Shown: one piece after another, positions 35,761-46,039 of the stretch
Position numbering within the stretch: the stretch's first letter is position 1
Layout of the letters: every line of letters starts with the position of its first letter
The notes under the pieces: generated by a model
The model's database searches: none
What the model was told of the DNA's origin: nothing
What the model saw: the letters and a program-made list of their open reading frames with translations, nothing else
Source of the DNA: an uncultured cyanobacterium
GTDB lineage: Bacteria > Cyanobacteriota > Cyanobacteriia > PCC-6307 > Cyanobiaceae
Length of the DNA stretch: 59,166 bases
Direction: 5' to 3'
Assembly (NCBI GenBank): GCA_903917565.1
Contig: CAIXBB010000015.1
Coordinates: 1 to 59,166, forward strand
Program-made: the position numbers and the translations under genes

Positions 35761-35913
35761 GATCGCGGGCGCACAGAAGCAAGCGGCCTTCCAGCGGGCG
35801 CTCAGGCCTCAGCGGGGCTGTCGAACACAGCCATCAATCACCGCCCTGACCGGACCGGCCAAGCTTAAGTGACAGGGACGACTCCCTCCCCTGAGAACCC
35901 ATCCGTGACAACG

Positions 35914-36513
35914 ATGCAGAACGGTCCAGCCGCCACCGGCGAGGTGATCCTCATCCGGCACGGTGAAACGGCGTGGAGTCTCTCCGGTCAGCACACCGGC
36001 AGCACCGACATCCCCCTCACCGAGCATGGCGAAGCGGTGGCCAGTCGGCTCGCCCCAGTGCTGGCGGACCGCGACTTTTCCCTGGTGCTGTGCAGTCCCC
36101 TGCAGCGGGCCCGCCGCACCTGCGAACTGGCGGGCCTGGGTGGGCAGGCCAGCATCGATCCCGATCTGGCCGAGTGGAACTACGGTGCCTACGAAGGCCT
36201 CACAACGTCCGAGATTCACGCCAAGCATCCGGACTGGTTGGTCTTCCGCGATGGCTGTCCCGACGGGGAGAGTCCCGCCCAGGTGGGGGAGAGGGTGGAT
36301 CGGGTGATCCGCCGGGTTCGGGAGAACGGCGGCCGGGTGGCCCTGTTCGCCCACGGGCATCTGCTGCGGGTGTTCGTGGCGCGCTGGATCGGGCTGCCGC
36401 CCAGCCACGGCGCCCATTTCCTGCTCGATACCGCCACGGTCACGATCCTGTCCGACTACCGCGGGCTGCCGGCGGTGAAGTGCTGGAACGCACCCCTGGC
36501 CGCGGGCGCCTGA
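35914..36513 (+). CDS. Histidine phosphatase (phosphoglycerate-mutase-like)
   Basis: A 199-residue protein of the two-histidine phosphatase family. Catalytic motif LIRHGETAW has the nucleophile H16; the second His is in LFAHGHLLRVF. LAEWNYGAYEGL provides the acid. It resembles GpmB/CobC-type enzymes: alpha-ribazole phosphatase, sugar phosphatase or cofactor-independent mutase activities are all possible. The ATG at 35914 is chosen over the upstream GTG at 35869. It is divergent from narB and 65 bases upstream of pgi. Confidence 0.87.
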   Translation: MQNGPAATGEVILIRHGETAWSLSGQHTGSTDIPLTEHGEAVASRLAPVLADRDFSLVLCSPLQRARRTCELAGLGGQASIDPDLAEWNYGAYEGLTTSEIHAKHPDWLVFRDGCPDGESPAQVGERVDRVIRRVRENGGRVALFAHGHLLRVFVARWIGLPPSHGAHFLLDTATVTILSDYRGLPAVKCWNAPLAAGA

Positions 36514-36578
36514 TGGCTCCGCCGCGTTCCTTTACCTCCGCCGGGTAGGAGTGTTTGAAGACGTCGGCAGGAGAAACC

Positions 36579-38177
36579 ATGGAGTCCCTCTGGAATCGCT
36601 TCCAGGAATGGCTGTACTTCCACCCAGGCCTCCAGCTCCACCTGGATGTGAGCAGGATGCGCATCGACGCAGGGCTGCCGGAACGGCTGGATTCGGCCTT
36701 CGCCGGGGCCTTCGCGGCCATGGAGGCGCTTGAGGCGGGCGGCATCGCCAATCCGGACGAGGAGAGGATGGTGGGCCATTACTGGCTGCGCCATCCGGAT
36801 CTGGCCCCCAGCGAGGAGATCCGAACCGAGATCGTGGCGGTGATCGAGCGGATCGACCGGTTCGCCAGGGAGGTGCACCAGGGCACGATCCATCCGCCAT
36901 CGGCCCCCCGTTTCACTGATCTGCTTTCCATCGGCATCGGCGGCTCGGCCCTGGGACCCCAGTTCGTGGCCGCCGCCCTGGCCCCCGACCAGCCGCCCCT
37001 GGCCATTCACTTCATCGACAACACCGACCCCGCCGGCATCGATCGGGTGCTGGAGGGGCTGCGTGATCGGCTCGGCAGCACCCTGGTGATCGACACCAGC
37101 AAGTCCGGTGGTACCCCCGAACCCCGCAACGGCCTGCTGGAGGTGCAGCAGGCCTTCGCCGCCCAGGGGCTGGACTTCGAGCGCCATGCGGTGGCGATCA
37201 CCATGCCGGGCAGCCGGATGGACCTCCTGGCCCACGAACAGCACTGGCTGGCTGAGTTCCCCATGCACGACTGGGTGGGGGGCCGCACCTCCGTGCTCTC
37301 GGCGGTGGGCCTGGTGCCAGCCGCGCTGCAGGGCATCGACATCCGGGCGCTGCTGGAGGGGGCCCGGGTGATGGACGAGGCCACCCGCGTCCCCCTGGTC
37401 CGCTCCAATCCCGCCGCCCTGCTGGCCCTCAGCTGGTTCCACGCCGGAGATGGCCGCGGCAGCAAGGACATGGTGGTGCTGCCCTACAAGGACAGCCTGC
37501 TGCTGTTCAGCCGCTACCTGCAGCAACTGGTGATGGAATCCCTCGGCAAGGAGAAGGACCTCGACGGCAACGTCGTGCACCAGGGCATCGCGGTGTACGG
37601 CAACAAGGGCTCTACCGACCAGCATGCCTACGTCCAGCAGCTCCGGGAGGGCATCCCCAATTTCTTCGCCACCTTCATCGAGGTCCTTGAGGATCGCTGC
37701 GGCGAATCGATCGAGGTGGAGGAGGGAGTCACCTCGGGAGACTTCCTCTCCGGCTTCCTCATGGGGACCCGCCAGGCGCTGTACGACAACCAGCGCGATT
37801 CAATCACCCTCACGATCCGCCGCGTGGAGCCCCGCAGCGCCGGCGCTCTCATCGCTCTCTACGAGCGGGCCGTGGGTCTCTATGCCTCGTTGGTGAACAT
37901 CAACGCGTATCACCAGCCCGGCGTGGAGGCCGGCAAGAAGGCCGCCGCTGCCATCCTGGATCTGCAACGCAGGGTGATCCGGGTGCTTCAGTCCGCCGAG
38001 CGCCCCCTCCCCCTGGAGGACCTGGCCCGCCTGGCCGACGCCAGCGAAGAGGTGGAAACCATCTACCAGATCGTGCGCCACCTGGCCGCCAATCCCCGGG
38101 GCCTCCTCCTTGAAGGCGATCCAGCCCAGCCCAGGACCCTATCCGTTTCCCTCCGGCAGCTCGTTCTCCAGCCATGA
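36579..38177 (+). CDS. pgi: Glucose-6-phosphate isomerase
   Basis: A 532-residue enzyme that interconverts glucose-6-P and fructose-6-P. Seen: GIGGSALGP at 119-127 and [10 protein letters not shown], plus family-wide SSRMD/GGRTS segments ([20 protein letters not shown]). The ATG at 36579 follows a purine-rich GGCAGGAG site. The last 4 bases overlap the start of the transketolase-like gene (ATGA), so the two are translated together. Full length. Confidence 0.95.
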
Positions 38178-40102
38178 CCCTCACCCAACCCAGCGTCGCC
38201 AGCGCCTTCCCGATCGATCTGGGGGCCTACCGGCCCCTGAGCCTCGATCCGGCCCATCCCGAGCTCACCGATCCCCAGCGGGACGCCCTGCGCGCCAACA
38301 TCCAGCTCTGCCGGGACGCGATCGTCTTCTTCACCGCCACCGGGGCCGCCCGCGGGGTCGGCGGCCACACCGGCGGCCCCTACGACACCGTGCCGGAGGT
38401 GATGATCCTCGATGGCTTCTTCCGCGGCGCTCCGGAGCGCTTCGTGCCGGTCTTCTTCGACGAGGCCGGCCACCGGGTGGCCACCCAGTACCTGATGGCG
38501 GTGCTGCGGGGCCAGCTGCCGGCCAGCGATCTGCTGCGCTATCGGGCCGCCCATTCGCGCCTCCCCGGCCACCCGGAGCTGGGCCTCACCCCGGGGGTGG
38601 AATTCAGCTCCGGCCGGCTGGGGCACCTCTGGCCGTTCGTGAACGGGGTGGCCCTGGCCCATCCGGGGCGCACGCTCTTCTGCCTGGGCTCTGATGGCGC
38701 CCAGCAGGAGGGCGATGACGCCGAAGCGGCCCGCTTTGCGGTGGCCCACGGCCTCGACGTGAAGCTGGTGATCGACGACAACGACGTCACCATCGCCGGC
38801 CATCCCTCCCAGTACCAGAAGGGCTACGACGTGGGTCGCACCCTCGCCGGCCAGGGCCTGGCCACCCTCAGCGGTGATGGTGAGGATCTCGACGACCTCT
38901 ACGGCAGGCTCTGTGCCGCCGTGGCCACCGAAGGCCCGGTGGCGGTGATCAACAAGCGCCCGATGGCGGTGGGCATCGCTGGGCTGGAGGGCTCCACCCA
39001 CGGCCACGACGTGATTCCGGTCGACCTGGCGATCGCCTACCTGGAGCAGCGCGGCCAGAACGCCGCCGCCGCCGCCCTCAAGGCGATGGAGAAACCCACC
39101 AATCCAAACATTTACCTGGGCTCCAGCCGCACCACCGCCGCCAACCGCAACATCTTCGGCGACACCGTCGTGGCGGTGCTCTCCCGGCTGGATCCGGCCG
39201 AGCGCAAGGACACGGTGCTCTGCGTCGACTCCGACCTGGAAGGCTCCTGCGGACTCAGCCAGATCCGCAAGGCCTATCCGGAGATCTTCATCAGCGGCGG
39301 CATCATGGAGCGGGCCAATTTCTCCGCCGCCGCCGGCTTCGGCATGGAGAAGGGCCGCCAGGGCATATTTGCCACCTTCAGCGCCTTCCTGGAGATGTGC
39401 ATCTCCGAAATCACCATGGCCCGGCTGAACGGCGCCAACGTGCTCTGTCATTTCTCCCACGCCGGGGTGGATGACATGGCCGACAACACCTGCCATTTCG
39501 GCCTCAACAACTGCTTCGCCGACAACGGCCTCGAAGATGACCACCACCCCACCCGGCTCTACTTCCCCGCCGACGGCGGCCAGATGAAGGCCTGCGTGGA
39601 AGCGGTGTTCCACGATCCCGGCCTGCGCTTCATCTTCTCGACCCGCTCCAAGGTGCCCAACCTGCTGGATGGGGAGGGCAACGACCTGCACGGGGATGGC
39701 TACGTCTTCCAGCCGGGCCGCGACGAGGTGGTCCGCGAAGGCGACGCGGGCACGATCATCAGCTTCGGCGATTGTCTCTACCGGTCCCTCGATGCGGTGG
39801 AGCGCCTGCGCCAGGAGGGCACCGCCGTGCGGCTGATCAACAAGGCCAGCCTCAACGTCGTCGATGAAACGATGATGGAAACAATCGGCACTTCCCCCTT
39901 CGTGCTGGTGGTGGAGGCCTTCAACCGCCGCACCGGCCTGGGCAGCCGTTTCGGCACCTGGCTGCTTGAGCGGGGCTACCACCCGAAGTACGCGCACCTC
40001 GGCACCTGGCGCGAAGGCTGCGGCGGCCTCTGGGAGCAGGCTCCCCACCAAGGGATCGACAGCGCGGGGATTCTGGCCCACGTACGCAGCCTGCTGGGCT
40101 GA
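38174..40102 (+). CDS. Divergent transketolase-family enzyme
   Basis: A 642-residue thiamine-diphosphate enzyme. An N-terminal TPP domain has [19 protein letters not shown] where ordinary transketolase reads GHPGAPMG, the TPP motif [15 protein letters not shown] with the later DDND, then a pyrimidine-binding domain ([14 protein letters not shown]...[14 protein letters not shown]) and a C-terminal domain. The substitutions suggest a subfamily apart from the Calvin-cycle TktA. Its overlap with pgi and nearness to phosphoketolase suggest a sugar-phosphate role. Exact donor and acceptor unknown. Confidence 0.8.
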
Positions 40103-40140: not shown

Positions 40141-41949
40141 CTACTGCCGGTCCCAGTCGAGATCCAGCTTCACCGAGCCGCCGCTGGGCAAAAGGAAGGT
40201 GCGACAGACAAGATTCTCGTAAACGGGTTCCAGACCGTTGGGGCGTAGCACCACGAACTTGAATCGAATCGGTCGTCCCGCCGATTCATGAAAGCCCACT
40301 TCGGCGAACCAGACGTCCCCGTTGATGTATTCCAGGTGGGGGCACCGATCCACATCCCAGGTACCCAGCTCAGGGGCATCACCGCAGACCGCCATCACTT
40401 CGCCGGGATGGGTGACGTAGTCGTTGATCTGAAACTTGACCACCGTGGTGGCCTTCAGGGGTTCTCCCTGGACCGCGAGAACGAACGCACCCTTGCCGGG
40501 GATGCTCAGTTCTCGGATCGCTCCCTGATCCACCACGAAGCTCTGACCGGTGAGCAGGCAGGTGTGGGACCCGTCAGGAAGGCCGGAATGCTCGAGGTTG
40601 AAGCGAGCGGGCTCTCCCTTGTTGATGACGACGAGCACACGATTGTCACGATACCGGCGGGTGTAGGCATAGATCCCTTCCGAGATGTACTTCTGGCCAT
40701 GCCGGCCGTAGGAAAGGGCGCGATTGGTCTTGCGCAACAGGGCCAGATGTCGGATGATCTCCGCCAGTCTTGAGCCTGTCTCCCACGAGGTCATCATGGG
40801 CCGGTTGTAGGGGTCATGGCCTCCATTGGTGTCGTTCACCAGGTACTGCTCGGTTCCATAGAACAGACAGGGAATGCCGCGCAACGTCAGCAGCAGCACC
40901 GTGGCCAGCTCCAGATCCCCGTGGCTGGGACAGATGGAGAGAAAACGGGGCATGTCGTGGTTCTCGATGAAGGTCACCAGGGCGGTGGAGCGCCGGTAGA
41001 CCGGATCCAGCGCCAGCACCCCCTCGATCAGATGAAAGCCACCAGGCTCGTGGCCGCTGAAGGCGGAGCGGATCGCAGCGGCGAGGGCGAAGTCGAGCAC
41101 CGACACGCCGGTGTCGTTGGCATAGTGCAGGTAGCGCGAATCCCAGGGCGAGCCGAAGCCATACTCCCCGAACAGGAACGTGCCAGGTTTGCTGGCCTGA
41201 ATGTCCGCCACGAATTCCTGCCAGAACCACACCGGCATGTGCTTGAGCGTGTCGATTCGCAGGGCATCAAAGCCGAGATCAAGCCAGGCCTTGATGGCAT
41301 TCTTGATGTAATTCCTGAAGTCAATATTCCGCTCATTGAAGGTGGCCAGCCCAAGCATTTCAAAATGAATCAGCTGAAACTCGTCATTCCAGTCTGTGAT
41401 TTCAGGATAATGGTGGTAGAAATGGTTGGCGTCATTGTGGAAGTCGGCAAGCGGCACCCCGTCATCCGTAACGACTCCCTTGCTGCCATGCAGCTCAGGA
41501 GAGCTGTGGTTGCAGACAATATCCAGGACGATCTTGATATCCCGTTCATGCAGGGCTTTGATCATTCTGCGCAGGGTGCCACAAGTTTTCAGTGAAGTCG
41601 ATTCACCCGGCATGACGAAATGTGGATTGACCCGCTTGAAGTCCTTCGTCCAATAGCCGTGCATCGGACCATGGCCATGCTCGATGTCATCCACCTGCTC
41701 AAACAGGGGAGAAAGCCAGACTGCTGTGATGCCAAGCTGCTTCAGGTAGTCGGCCTTCTCGATGACCCCCTCGAGATCACCACCCCAGTAATGTCCCCAA
41801 TGGGTAAGACTCGGGTCATGGAGCCCCTTCTTGCTGATCTCATCATTGGCTTTGTTGCCATTGAAGAAGCGATCGATCACGATGAAGTAGATCGTCTCCT
41901 TCCGGAATTCCGCCTCCTGCTCGAACAACTGGTTGGCGGAGGTGCTCAT
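40141..41949 (-). CDS. GH13 alpha-amylase / cyclodextrin-glucanotransferase-like enzyme with starch-binding module
   Basis: A 602-residue glycoside hydrolase. The catalytic residues are D233 (ALRID), E262 (LFGEYGF) and D332 (FIENHD); CNHSS at 146-150 completes the conserved regions. The C-terminal 100 residues (VVKFQINDYVTHPGEVMAVC, GTWD) look like a CBM20-type starch-binding module. No signal peptide is visible, so it probably acts on cytosolic glycogen or maltodextrin. ATG at 41949 has an upstream AGAAGGG; the ATG at 41976 is an alternative. It lies convergent with the transketolase gene. Confidence 0.9.
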   Translation of the reverse strand: MSTSANQLFEQEAEFRKETIYFIVIDRFFNGNKANDEISKKGLHDPSLTHWGHYWGGDLEGVIEKADYLKQLGITAVWLSPLFEQVDDIEHGHGPMHGYWTKDFKRVNPHFVMPGESTSLKTCGTLRRMIKALHERDIKIVLDIVCNHSSPELHGSKGVVTDDGVPLADFHNDANHFYHHYPEITDWNDEFQLIHFEMLGLATFNERNIDFRNYIKNAIKAWLDLGFDALRIDTLKHMPVWFWQEFVADIQASKPGTFLFGEYGFGSPWDSRYLHYANDTGVSVLDFALAAAIRSAFSGHEPGGFHLIEGVLALDPVYRRSTALVTFIENHDMPRFLSICPSHGDLELATVLLLTLRGIPCLFYGTEQYLVNDTNGGHDPYNRPMMTSWETGSRLAEIIRHLALLRKTNRALSYGRHGQKYISEGIYAYTRRYRDNRVLVVINKGEPARFNLEHSGLPDGSHTCLLTGQSFVVDQGAIRELSIPGKGAFVLAVQGEPLKATTVVKFQINDYVTHPGEVMAVCGDAPELGTWDVDRCPHLEYINGDVWFAEVGFHESAGRPIRFKFVVLRPNGLEPVYENLVCRTFLLPSGGSVKLDLDWDRQ

Positions 41950-42131
41950 GGACCCTTCTGGGGCGATGGCAACCATGACGGGGCTATCCTGCGAGGGCGC
42001 TCGAACTACCTTGCTCCAGCCAGGAGATCGAGGGGTTAAGGCGGGAGACACCAGCCATAGGCACTGCTGATCGTCCCGTCCGAGCCCCTCGACAACACCT
42101 CATCACCGTGGCGTCATGAGGTCTCCGGGCG

Positions 42132-42362: not shown

Positions 42363-42506
42363 GGTGAGTGGATGGGCGGCTGCAACTCCCTGCACCGATG
42401 TGCTTGATGTCGGATCCCTGACCTCCACCAGGGAGGAGCGTCGGGTTACCGGCTTTTAACGCGGGCAGGCGAAAGTTGACCCCACAGACCCCCGCATGTG
42501 ACGGCC

Positions 42507-44936
42507 ATGACCATCTCGACGATGGCACCCTTCGATGCCCACGCCTCCACACCGGATCTTGAGCAGGAGCTGTCCCTGATCGATGCCTGGTGGCGAGCCG
42601 CCAACTACCTGGCGGTGGGGATGATCTACCTGCGGGCCAACCCGCTGCTGGCCGAACCGCTGCGTCATGAGCACGTCAAGGCGCGGCTGCTGGGCCACTG
42701 GGGTTCCTCTCCCGGCCAGGCCTTCATCTGGGCCCATGCCAACCGGGTCATCCGCCATCACGACCTCGACATGATCTACCTGTCGGGACCAGGGCACGGC
42801 GCCCCCGGGGTGCTCGGCCCCACCTACCTCGACGGCAGCTACAGCGAGGTCTACCCCGACAAGAGCCAGGACGCCGATGGGATGCAGCGCTTCTTCAAGC
42901 AGTTCTCCTTCCCTGGCCACATCGGCAGCCACTGCACCCCGGAAACCCCCGGTTCGATCCACGAGGGGGGCGAGCTCGGGTACGTCCTGTCCCACGCCTG
43001 CGGGGCGGTGTTCGACAGCCCCAACCTTATCGCCCTGGCCTGCGTGGGTGATGGCGAGGCCGAGACCGGCCCCCTGGCCACCTCCTGGCACATCAACAAA
43101 TTCCTCAACCCGATCGGAGACGGGGCGGTGCTGCCGGTGCTGCACCTCAACGGCTACAAGATCGCCAACCCCACCCTGCTGGCCCGCATCCCCCACGAGG
43201 AGCTGGCCAACCTGATGCGCGGCTACGGCTGGGAACCGATCTTCGTCGAAGGCCATGAGCCGATGGCCATGCACCGGGCCATGGCCGCCGCCATGGACCA
43301 GGCGATCGGGCGCATCCTCGAGATCCGCGCCGAGGCTCGCACCAGCGGCGAGGCGGTCCGCCCCGCCTGGCCGATGATCGTGCTGCGCTCGCCCAAGGGA
43401 TGGACCGGACCGACCTCCCTGCACGGCAAGAAGCTGGAGGGCTTCTGGCGGGCCCACCAGGTGCCCCTGGCCGCGCCGAACACCGATCCCGAACAGCTGC
43501 AGCTGCTGGAGGAGTGGCTCAGGAGCTACCGGCCCGAGGAGCTGTTCGATGCCGACGGCACCCTGCGGCCCGAGCTGCAGGCGTTGTCGCCCCAGGGAAA
43601 TCGGCGGATGGGCTCCAACCCCCACGCCAACGGCGGCCTGCTACGCCGCAAGCTGCAGTTCCCGCCCCTGGAGGACTACGAGGTGCAGGTGGTGTCGCCA
43701 GGCGCCACGGAGGCGGAGAACACCTACCCCCTCGGGGAGCTGCTGCGCGACATCATCCAGGCGAATCCCTATTCCATGCGGGTGTTCGGCCCCGATGAAA
43801 CGGCCTCCAACCGTCTGCAGGCGATCTACGAAGTCAGCAAGAAGGTATGGATGGAGGAGTTCCTGCCGGAGGACCTCAATGGCAGTGAACTGGCCCGCAG
43901 CGGGCGGGTGGTGGAGATGCTCAGCGAACACACGCTGGTGGGGATGATGGAGGGCTACCTGCTCACCGGGCGCTACGGCTTCTTCCACACCTACGAGGCC
44001 TTCGCCCATGTGATCGCCTCGATGTTCAACCAGCACGCCAAGTGGCTGGAATCCTGCCTCCTGCATGCCACCTGGCGAGCCCCGATCGGCCCCTGGAACT
44101 GTCTGATCTCTTCCACGGTGTGGCGGCAGGACCACAACGGCTTCACCCACCAGGATCCCGGCTTCATCGACCTGGCCGGCAACAAGAGCGGCGACGTGGT
44201 GCGCGTGTATCTGCCGGCGGATGCCAACTGCCTGCTGGCCGTGGCGGAGGAGGCCCTGCAGGAAACCAACGTCTGCAACATCATCGTCTCCGACAAACAG
44301 AAGCACCTGCAGTACTTCACCCTGGAGCAGGCCAGGCGCCATGTGGCCAAGGGGGTCAGCATCGTCCGCTGGGCCAGCAACGACGACTGCGGCACTGAGC
44401 CGGATGAGCCGGATGTGGTGATGGCCTGTGCCGGCGACATCCCCACCAAGGAGACGCTGGCGGCGGTGGAGATCCTTCACCGTGAGATTCCGAATCTGCG
44501 CATTCGGGTGATCAATGTGGTCAAGCTGTTCGCCCTCACCGAGCCGAACGAGCATCCCCACGGCCTCAGCGACCGGGATTTCGACACCCTGTTCACCACC
44601 GACCGGCCGGTGATCTTCAACTTCCACGGCTATCCCTGGCTGATCCACCGGCTCACCTACCGCCGCACCAACCACGCCAACATCCACGTGCGTGGCTACA
44701 AGGAGAAGGGCAACATCAACACGCCCCTGGAGCTGGCGATGAACAACCAGATCGATCGCTTCAATCTGGTGATCGACGTGGTCAACCGGGTGCCCTTCCT
44801 GCGCTCCCGCGCCGCCCATGTCAAGGAGCGCATGCAGGATGCGATCCTGTCCCACCGCGCCTACGCCCACACCCACGGCACCGATGCCCCGGAAGTGACC
44901 GACTGGCGCTGGACGCTGCCGATTTCCGGGCGCTGA
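42507..44936 (+). CDS. xfp: Phosphoketolase (xylulose-5-P/fructose-6-P type)
   Basis: An 809-residue TPP enzyme that cleaves xylulose-5-P or fructose-6-P with phosphate to acetyl-phosphate plus glyceraldehyde-3-P or erythrose-4-P. Seen: SGPGHGAP at 93-100 and the TPP motif [10 protein letters not shown] at 181-190, plus INVVKLF near the C-terminus. Full family length. The ATG at 42507 is preferred to a GTG three codons earlier. Its stop overlaps the ackA start by one base (TGATG), so the two form an acetyl-P to acetate + ATP unit. Confidence 0.95.
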
Positions 44937-46039
44937 TGACGGACCCGGCCACAGCGAGCGCGCCCGGCAAGGGTGAGGTGCTGGTGCTGAACGCCGGCAG
45001 CTCCAGCCTCAAGGTCTCCGTGCACGGGCGCACGGGGACCCGCCTCTGGAGCGACCAGCGCAGCTGGAGCGTCGGCGCCGCCGAAGGCACCGCCCCCCAG
45101 GAGCGCCTGGAGGCGGTGCTGGAGGCCTGGCTGCCCGAGGCGCTGTCGGCCTGGGGGGATGGCCTGACCCTGGCTGGCCATCGCGTGGTCCATGGCGGTG
45201 AACGCTTCACGGCCCCCGTCCGGCTCGACCCGGAGGTGCTGGACGTGCTGGAGGAGCTGGTGCCCCTGGCTCCTTTGCACAACGGCCCGGCCCTGCGGGT
45301 GATGCGCTGGCTGAGCCGCTGGAAACCCGAGCTTGAGCAGTGGGCCTGCTTCGATACGGCGTTCCACGGCACCCTGCCAGCGGCGGCCCGCACCTATGCG
45401 ATCCCGGCCCGCTGGCGTGCCCAGGGCCTGCGCCGCTTCGGCTTCCACGGCCTCAACCATCAGCATGTGGCCGAAAGCGTGGCCCTGCGCCGCGCTGACG
45501 CCGCCGGCCGCGACGGGCTGCGGCTGATCAGCTGCCACCTGGGTGCCGGCTGCTCCCTCTGCGCCATCCGGGGGGGGCGAAGCATCGCCACCACGATGGG
45601 CTACACCCCCCTGGAGGGTCTGGTGATGGCCACGCGCAGCGGTTCGGTGGATCCGGGTCTGTTGCTGTACCAGCTGCGCCGGGGGGCCACGGTCGAGGAG
45701 CTCGCCCACGATCTGCAGCAGGAGAGCGGGCTGCTGGGCCTCTCGGAGTTGAGCCCGAGCATGAAGGACCTGCGCCTGGCCGCCGCCCAGGGCCATGGGG
45801 GGGCCCAGCTGGCGATCGCGGTGTTCCGCCACCAGTTGCTGCAGGGCATCGGGGCCATGGCCGCCTCCCTGGGAGGGGTCGATGTGGTGGCCCTCACCGG
45901 CGGCATCGGCGAGCACGATGGGGCGCTGAAGAAGGAGCTGGAAGCGGAGCTCGCCTGGCTGGGACCGTTCGAGTTGCTGCAGATCGCCGCCGATGAGGAG
46001 GGGGTGATCGCCCGTCACTGCATCGCCGCAGGCCCCTGA
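44936..46039 (+). CDS. ackA: Acetate kinase
   Basis: A 367-residue ASKHA kinase converting acetyl-P and ADP to acetate and ATP. Seen: VLNAGSSSLKVSVHGR at the N-terminus, the FDTAFHGTLP and FGFHGLNHQ His/phosphate motifs, SCHLGAGCSLCAI, and GGIGEHDGAL near the C-terminus. It is somewhat shorter than the usual 400 residues. There is no pta next to it, because phosphoketolase supplies acetyl-P directly. Start overlaps the phosphoketolase stop. Confidence 0.93.
   Translation: MTDPATASAPGKGEVLVLNAGSSSLKVSVHGRTGTRLWSDQRSWSVGAAEGTAPQERLEAVLEAWLPEALSAWGDGLTLAGHRVVHGGERFTAPVRLDPEVLDVLEELVPLAPLHNGPALRVMRWLSRWKPELEQWACFDTAFHGTLPAAARTYAIPARWRAQGLRRFGFHGLNHQHVAESVALRRADAAGRDGLRLISCHLGAGCSLCAIRGGRSIATTMGYTPLEGLVMATRSGSVDPGLLLYQLRRGATVEELAHDLQQESGLLGLSELSPSMKDLRLAAAQGHGGAQLAIAVFRHQLLQGIGAMAASLGGVDVVALTGGIGEHDGALKKELEAELAWLGPFELLQIAADEEGVIARHCIAAGP

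Follow-up and report, generated by a model that had tools for sequence, protein, structure and literature searches.

The 59,166-nucleotide stretch of DNA analysed here, referred to as the window, is contig CAIXBB010000015.1 (assembly GCA_903917565.1) of an uncultured cyanobacterium of the family Cyanobiaceae, and it carries a gene for a transketolase-superfamily protein that we denote TKL. Judged by sequence comparison, TKL is a member of a conserved, deep-branching accessory transketolase subfamily that is undescribed: no description of the family was found in the open-licence literature searched. The reading that we favor, and to which we give about even credence, is that TKL is an accessory thiamine diphosphate (ThDP)-dependent transketolase that would act outside the Calvin cycle and that is attached, in this genome, to a phosphoketolase–acetate module. 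The gene and its altered active-site segment lie at the following positions.

38174..40102, plus strand: TKL, transketolase-superfamily protein; an open reading frame (ORF) of 642 amino acids starting with ATG, assigned by Pfam and 14 of 14 active-site residues, with NCBIfam scores below cut-off
38366..38389, plus strand: codons of the segment HTGGPYDT, residues 65-72, counted from the ORF start at 38174 and aligned to E. coli TktA H26-M33

An earlier note on this DNA had described a divergent transketolase here, and its coordinates and motifs are all borne out: the 642-residue ORF, HTGGPYDT, and the signature GSDG...DDND, which occupies residues 172-175 and 201-204. Pfam recognizes Transketolase_N (PF00456, 50.1 bits; gathering score 22) and Transketolase_C (PF02780, 40.0 bits; gathering score 25.9), and at an E value of 0.001 neither the pyrimidine-domain model nor any of the phosphoketolase domains XFP_N, XFP, and XFP_C was found in the protein. 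Among the NCBIfam transketolase models listed, TKL scores best with NF004556 (215.7 bits; cut-off 575), followed by NF004559 (181.4; 488), TIGR00232 (65.5; 682), and NF004558 (37.1; 788), none of which reaches its cut-off, and the dxs model is not reached either (42 bits; 466). The nearest solved sequences are transketolases, and human TKT is matched with a profile E value of 2.1e-27. The ratio of nonsynonymous to synonymous substitution rates (dN/dS) is 0.11-0.28 against six relatives, which indicates that the gene is under purifying selection.

The catalytic apparatus is the main evidence for the chemistry. In an alignment of 59 TKL rows, 58 of which are distinct and one of which comes from the window, 14 positions of E. 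coli TktA were compared, which we take to be those that define cofactor binding, catalysis, and the donor-phosphate site. All 14 residues are retained in TKL, in every one of the 59 rows. They comprise the ThDP/Mg motif GDG..N together with the catalytic glutamate (D174, E179, N203, and E379), and the histidine and donor-phosphate sets (H65, H100, H133, H278, H441, R325, S358, H429, R491, and D437). The ThDP motif opens with serine instead of glycine (GSDG). At the same positions, three short transketolases retain 13 residues, the phosphoketolase of the genome nine, and its DXS eight. Since the catalytic, cofactor, and donor-phosphate residues are all retained, a transketolase-like chemistry is the most likely, and ketol transfer between sugar phosphates is the best guess for the reaction.

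The segment HTGGPYDT retains the catalytic histidine, and the window differs from E. coli TktA at positions 24, 27, 29, 31, 32, and 33. Across the 59 rows H65, G67, G68, and D71 do not vary, and T66 and Y70 occur in 54 and 57 of them, respectively; because the segment is conserved in this manner and the dN/dS is low, it is not a product of chance. The earlier note had set it against GHPGAPMG as the segment of normal transketolases and had taken the change as a pointer to a different substrate. The segment does differ, but GHPGAPMG is the wording of the E. coli enzyme only: the own TktA of the genome reads GHPGLPMG, the short transketolases compared read GHPTSSMS, and DXS reads GHLGPGLG. This loop thus varies among ordinary transketolases, and with all 14 TktA residues kept the segment loses its value as evidence for a different substrate. 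Five substitutions in TKL, S24G, P27T, M31Y, G32D, and P115R in E. coli numbering, should adjoin the substrate and the cofactor. More telling than the segment itself are D71 and R148. R148 sits within a G-x-L-G loop, which is taken to be, by analogy, the counterpart of a loop in the split transketolase, in which two residues of the N chain, Gly117 and Leu119, hold the aminopyrimidine (PMC7661550, excerpt). A shifted acceptor or donor preference of TKL is possible but unproven.

Such a shift is the core of one alternative: TKL would transfer ketol units but use another donor or acceptor, and its specificity would be set by the changed loop, D71, and R148. Examples would be sugar phosphates that are long or branched, small aldehydes, or a hexose phosphate that serves as acceptor and gives rise to an octulose phosphate. 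We regard this alternative as possible, though on the doubtful side. It draws on D71 and R148, which occur in every row of the alignment (59 of 59) and which the compared transketolases lack, and on the long TKL stem (3.48 and 3.35 changes per column in two trees), which is about the length of the DXS branch (3.21). Two genomes carry TKL beside a GmhB-like heptose-bisphosphate phosphatase in a polysaccharide-type cluster, and 21 of 108 loci have a DeoR/GlpR-type gene opposite TKL. There is also a precedent in plants, where transketolases 7 and 10 are described, in an excerpt of PMC4892735, as making octulose-8-phosphate from glucose 6-phosphate (G6P) and fructose 6-phosphate (F6P). However, TKL shows no change at the donor-phosphate and catalytic positions checked, the segment is variable in ordinary transketolases too, and a conserved partner gene that would point to one substrate was not found.

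Whether or not DXS is included in the tree, the TKL sequences group in a fully supported clade of their own, which is deep and separate from both the TktA-type and the short transketolases. The stem to the drawn root measures the 3.48 and 3.35 changes per column given above, the first of these under a long-branch warning. Identities within the subfamily are 57-94%. Of 60 close genomes, 22 carry TKL, two of them as a broken copy and with a 28% match in G050 not counted; across the phylum, with three candidates scored per genome, 30 of 386 genomes have it, and these represent 17 of 139 genera. At least 532 relatives exist in named records, and the best 80 loci are all cyanobacterial by title (Cyanobium, Synechococcus, Leptolyngbya, Nostoc, Fischerella, Chlorogloeopsis, and others). 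In plasmid records only one of 86 matches exceeds 60% (Nostoc sp. MS1, 72%); the remaining 85, which include split transketolases, lie below 60%, and the 19 of them listed are at most 28.1% identical.

Known relatives share different parts of these properties. The TktA type (TIGR00232; E. coli and the own genome) has the same ThDP motif, catalytic glutamate, histidine set, and Arg-Ser-His-Arg donor-phosphate set as TKL, but differs in the loop and in the stretch that reads GRLGH in TKL, lies outside the TKL clade, and is 33% identical over 190 N-terminal columns in the best BLAST stretch against the TktA of the genome. The short transketolases (NF004556, PRK05899.2-2; animal TKT and actinobacterial enzymes) provide the nearest curated model, matched over nearly the full length; they form a separate clade, and the three compared have glutamine at E. 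coli position 473, where TKL has histidine. DXS resembles the TKL models in domain arrangement but differs at six of the 14 active-site positions and in the dxs score. Phosphoketolase (XFP) is both a neighbouring gene and a distant member of the superfamily, set apart by its five differing residues in 14 and by the lack of an XFP match in TKL. A further candidate, sll0529, turned out to be a putative phosphoketolase and was dropped.

TKL is not the only transketolase of its genome. A canonical TktA is encoded separately (G000:C10, a 672-residue ORF scoring 519.6 bits with PF00456), so that the case in which TKL is the sole transketolase and does the Calvin-cycle job, which the earlier note had named as its own refutation, does not apply. 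A role outside the Calvin cycle, as that note had supposed, is therefore likely, as judged from gene content. In a survey of 32 TKL-bearing genomes and two comparators lacking TKL, canonical TktA is present in 30 of the 32; it was missed in G010 and G143. These two misses, together with active-site residues that are the same as in TktA, are what speaks for TKL as a back-up isoenzyme that would do the Calvin-cycle job under some condition. We consider this very unlikely: TKL has diverged far beyond the usual level of isoenzymes, G010 is an assembly of 80 contigs, and TktA was found in the six other tested genomes of the genus of G143. G143 itself is a near-complete genome. When the 8.6 kb stretch of its relative G352 that carries tktA (L259 5618-14207, with a gene that we presume to be FabF-like and other genes) was searched for there, only short repeat-like matches were obtained, with 40 of 340 candidates scored. 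Because the neighbours of tktA, the FabF-like gene included, were not found among the candidates scored either, the gap in G143 is probably missing assembly; a natural replacement of TktA by TKL in G143 was considered and rejected on the six relatives and on the 8.6 kb not found in these 40 of 340 candidates. Additional transketolase-type genes (PF00456, 97-173 bits) were observed in G149, G173, G159, G050, G352, G145, and G296, where they stand beside TktA and, except in G050, beside TKL.

Structure prediction bears on a further alternative. Two single-chain AlphaFold2 models of TKL were made, from 21 rows (mean predicted local distance difference test score, pLDDT, 75.3) and 58 rows (83.4), and fold searches with them returned ThDP-enzyme chains exclusively among the matches listed. 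By Z score, transketolase and DXS are matched about equally by both models. The half formed by the pyrimidine (Pyr) and C domains superposes over 289 residues on 6yaj, a split transketolase, at 2.2 Å and with a Z score of 32.5, and model residues 320-642 match solved Pyr+C halves. As a whole, the two models superpose on DXS-type chains at 3.0-4.0 Å over 456-542 residues versus 18.4-19.0 Å for human transketolase. The active site lies between chains in transketolase and within the chain in DXS (PMC7661550, excerpt), and the models would fit TKL as a DXS-like carboligase with its site inside one chain and perhaps an α-keto acid donor, whose carboxylate R148 might meet. This is highly improbable in our judgment. 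The prediction of a lone chain can place a between-chain contact inside that chain, confidence is low for several active-site loops, and DXS retains only eight of the 14 residues that TKL retains. The DXS-like arrangement is treated as a hint, since these are single-chain predictions.

The pathway to which the accessory transketolase may belong is suggested by the genes around it in the window:

35869..36513, plus strand: histidine phosphatase, candidate sugar-bisphosphate phosphatase; best solved relatives GPM2 (8.2e-43) and yeast YKR043C (6.7e-29)
36555..38177, plus strand: pgi, glucose-6-phosphate isomerase; NF010696, 856.7 bits (cut-off 671); overlaps the TKL start by four bases
40141..42051, minus strand: alpha-amylase-type protein with CBM20, a variable cassette member; profile matches
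42498..44936, plus strand: xfp, phosphoketolase; NF003617, 1412.3 bits (cut-off 1143)
44936..46039, plus strand: ackA, acetate kinase family; PF00871, with NCBIfam ackA at 279.2 bits, below its cut-off of 293.4

The pair xfp–ackA begins 2.4 kb downstream of TKL, with the amylase gene on the opposite strand between them. The yeast protein YKR043C is, we take it, YK23. In an excerpt of PMC4535450, fructose bisphosphatase (FBPase) activity is given as proven for GPM2, and YK23, which is SHB17, is given both FBPase and sedoheptulose bisphosphatase (SBPase) activity. The phosphatase is a candidate sugar-bisphosphate phosphatase because these relatives have such activities.

The places of the phosphatase, TKL, and xfp were compared across 37 genomes of the genus (G000-G036). 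TKL is present in 13 of them, intact in 11 and broken in two. Among these 13, a phosphatase on the same strand lies upstream within 1.7 kb in nine and xfp lies downstream within 2.5 kb in seven. The syntenic order is narB, phosphatase, a variable part, xfp, ackA, and sdhB. The variable part is empty in G004, G008, and G022, consists of TKL alone in G003, G012, G433, and G435, of the amylase alone in G001 and G023, and of pgi–TKL–amylase in the window, G024, G025, and also G002. In G002 (L291, G002:C30:17000-30000), where the copy is broken, the pgi, TKL, and amylase matches are in pieces and the phosphatase, xfp, ackA, and sdhB are each in one piece. G029 and G035 keep the phosphatase, TKL, and amylase together and have xfp elsewhere. 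In six of the 24 genomes without TKL the phosphatase abuts xfp at 102-135 bp. Five of these (G004, G006, G008, G017, and G022) have gaps of 102-117 bp, with ackA next in the three loci read; the sixth, G005, has a gap of 135 bp but stops within its phosphatase.

The earlier note had based part of its argument on an operon with pgi and on nearness to phosphoketolase, and the two fare differently. The four-base overlap with pgi is real here, but pgi lies directly upstream in only four of the 11 intact genus copies (the window, G011, G024, and G025), plus a more divergent Cyanobium locus, L094 (phosphatase–pgi–TKL, identities of 75, 72, and 77%, followed by xfp after 3.7 kb), and at no locus among 19 from other genera; it was set aside as functional evidence and kept as a local feature. 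The nearness to phosphoketolase recurs within the genus, so that this link is the better supported of the two by gene order, but only in this genus.

If the accessory transketolase works with these genes, stored sugar would be converted to G6P and F6P through the amylase and Pgi, and phosphoketolase would yield acetyl phosphate with erythrose 4-phosphate (E4P) or glyceraldehyde 3-phosphate. TKL would operate outside the Calvin cycle, passing a two-carbon ketol unit between ketose phosphates and aldose phosphates; together with the sugar phosphatase it would turn E4P and hexose phosphate into xylulose 5-phosphate and sedoheptulose 7-phosphate for the next round, and acetate kinase would produce ATP and acetate. 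The sequences establish the gene family, its retained active-site residues, the separate TktA, and the gene orders; we infer the cofactor binding, the reaction, the pathway, and the direction of the pathway. In S. elongatus, a phosphoketolase–acetate kinase route is described in an excerpt of PMC10365998 as supporting survival in dark, anaerobic conditions and under osmotic stress. A synthetic non-oxidative glycolysis and its SBPase variant combine phosphoketolase with carbon rearrangement, by transketolase and transaldolase or by a sugar bisphosphatase, into acetyl phosphate without loss of CO2 (PMC10468489, excerpt). That pathway is an engineered system, whereas at the TKL locus it is gene order alone that suggests it: the genes for phosphoketolase, transketolase, and bisphosphatase are clustered, the latter two being assigned only by similarity.

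Several observations weigh against an accessory transketolase tied to phosphoketolase. On the side of the enzyme, TKL falls below the cut-off of every NCBIfam transketolase model listed, its stem (3.48) about equals the DXS branch, D71 and R148 have no counterpart in the transketolases compared, and both models take the DXS-like arrangement. As to the pathway, TktA could serve such a phosphoketolase route, and 24 of the 37 genus genomes have no TKL. Of those 24, the remaining 18 lack the phosphatase–xfp adjacency (the two genes are on different contigs in 12, one of them was not found in four, they are 450 kb apart in one, and the amylase lies between them in G001). The phosphatase, pgi, xfp, and ackA were not found near TKL in 19 loci of other genera, and 70 of the best 80 named loci hold none of the phosphatase, pgi, amylase, xfp, and ackA. 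The ten exceptions are eight Cyanobium loci, Baaleninema (pgi 3.8 kb upstream), and Fischerella (ackA 2.7 kb upstream). The phosphoketolase link may be local, since TKL elsewhere is mostly apart from these genes.

In an extended form of the proposal, TKL would stand for its own class of ketol transferase, combining the catalytic residues of transketolases with a DXS-like, within-chain architecture, and it would complete a natural, gene-clustered non-oxidative glycolysis (sugar bisphosphatase, Pgi, TKL, phosphoketolase, and acetate kinase) that would take stored glucan to acetyl phosphate without carbon loss in freshwater-type picocyanobacteria. We rate it as unlikely. The TKL clade could show how cyanobacteria keep carbon fixation in the light apart from sugar breakdown in the dark, the module could be a natural counterpart of an engineered carbon-saving pathway, and the enzyme could be a new scaffold for C–C bond formation.

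The DeoR/GlpR-family gene lies divergently upstream of TKL in its 21 of 108 loci, some genomes being counted twice, and in Nostoc sp. MS1 the gene opposite TKL is annotated as DeoR/GlpR-type. For the two such proteins that were scanned, GlpR and AgaR give the highest-scoring models, below cut-off. The gap between the two genes contains a conserved element, ATTCAAGCAYATTCRTGCA, in L061, L062, L063, L071, L171, and others; reversed, it reads as two GTGC-TGAAT-like repeats. The motif was picked by eye from part of the gap sequences. In genome scans allowing up to two mismatches it occurs once per genome in four of four genomes, always in front of TKL, and the reversed-pattern control matches once in G173 and nowhere in the three others. 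A wider DeoR regulon was not found in these four genomes at this mismatch limit. The element is a possible operator, although it could be a promoter element instead; with the DeoR-type gene, it points to a putative sugar-phosphate-sensing switch for a single gene.

The two genomes with TKL inside a polysaccharide-type cluster, which are related to each other, are G151 and G100 (L069 and L070). The cluster contains the GmhB-like phosphatase, an epimerase, an aminotransferase-like gene, and an amylase, and these TKL proteins are the most divergent among the cyanobacterial genomes aligned (65%). The viral contig IMGVR_UViG_3300047169_000098 (L159) carries a TKL relative (57%) at its end, alongside genes that we take, by name, to be Mu-like phage genes; the relative probably lies in flanking host DNA. 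At L076 (G115:C1:4757000-4776900) TKL is present in two tandem copies, each with one in-frame TAG, and the single genome of Cyanobium sp. Cruz-8D1 carries TKL twice (L081 and L092), with identities of 94% and 78% to the TKL of the window.

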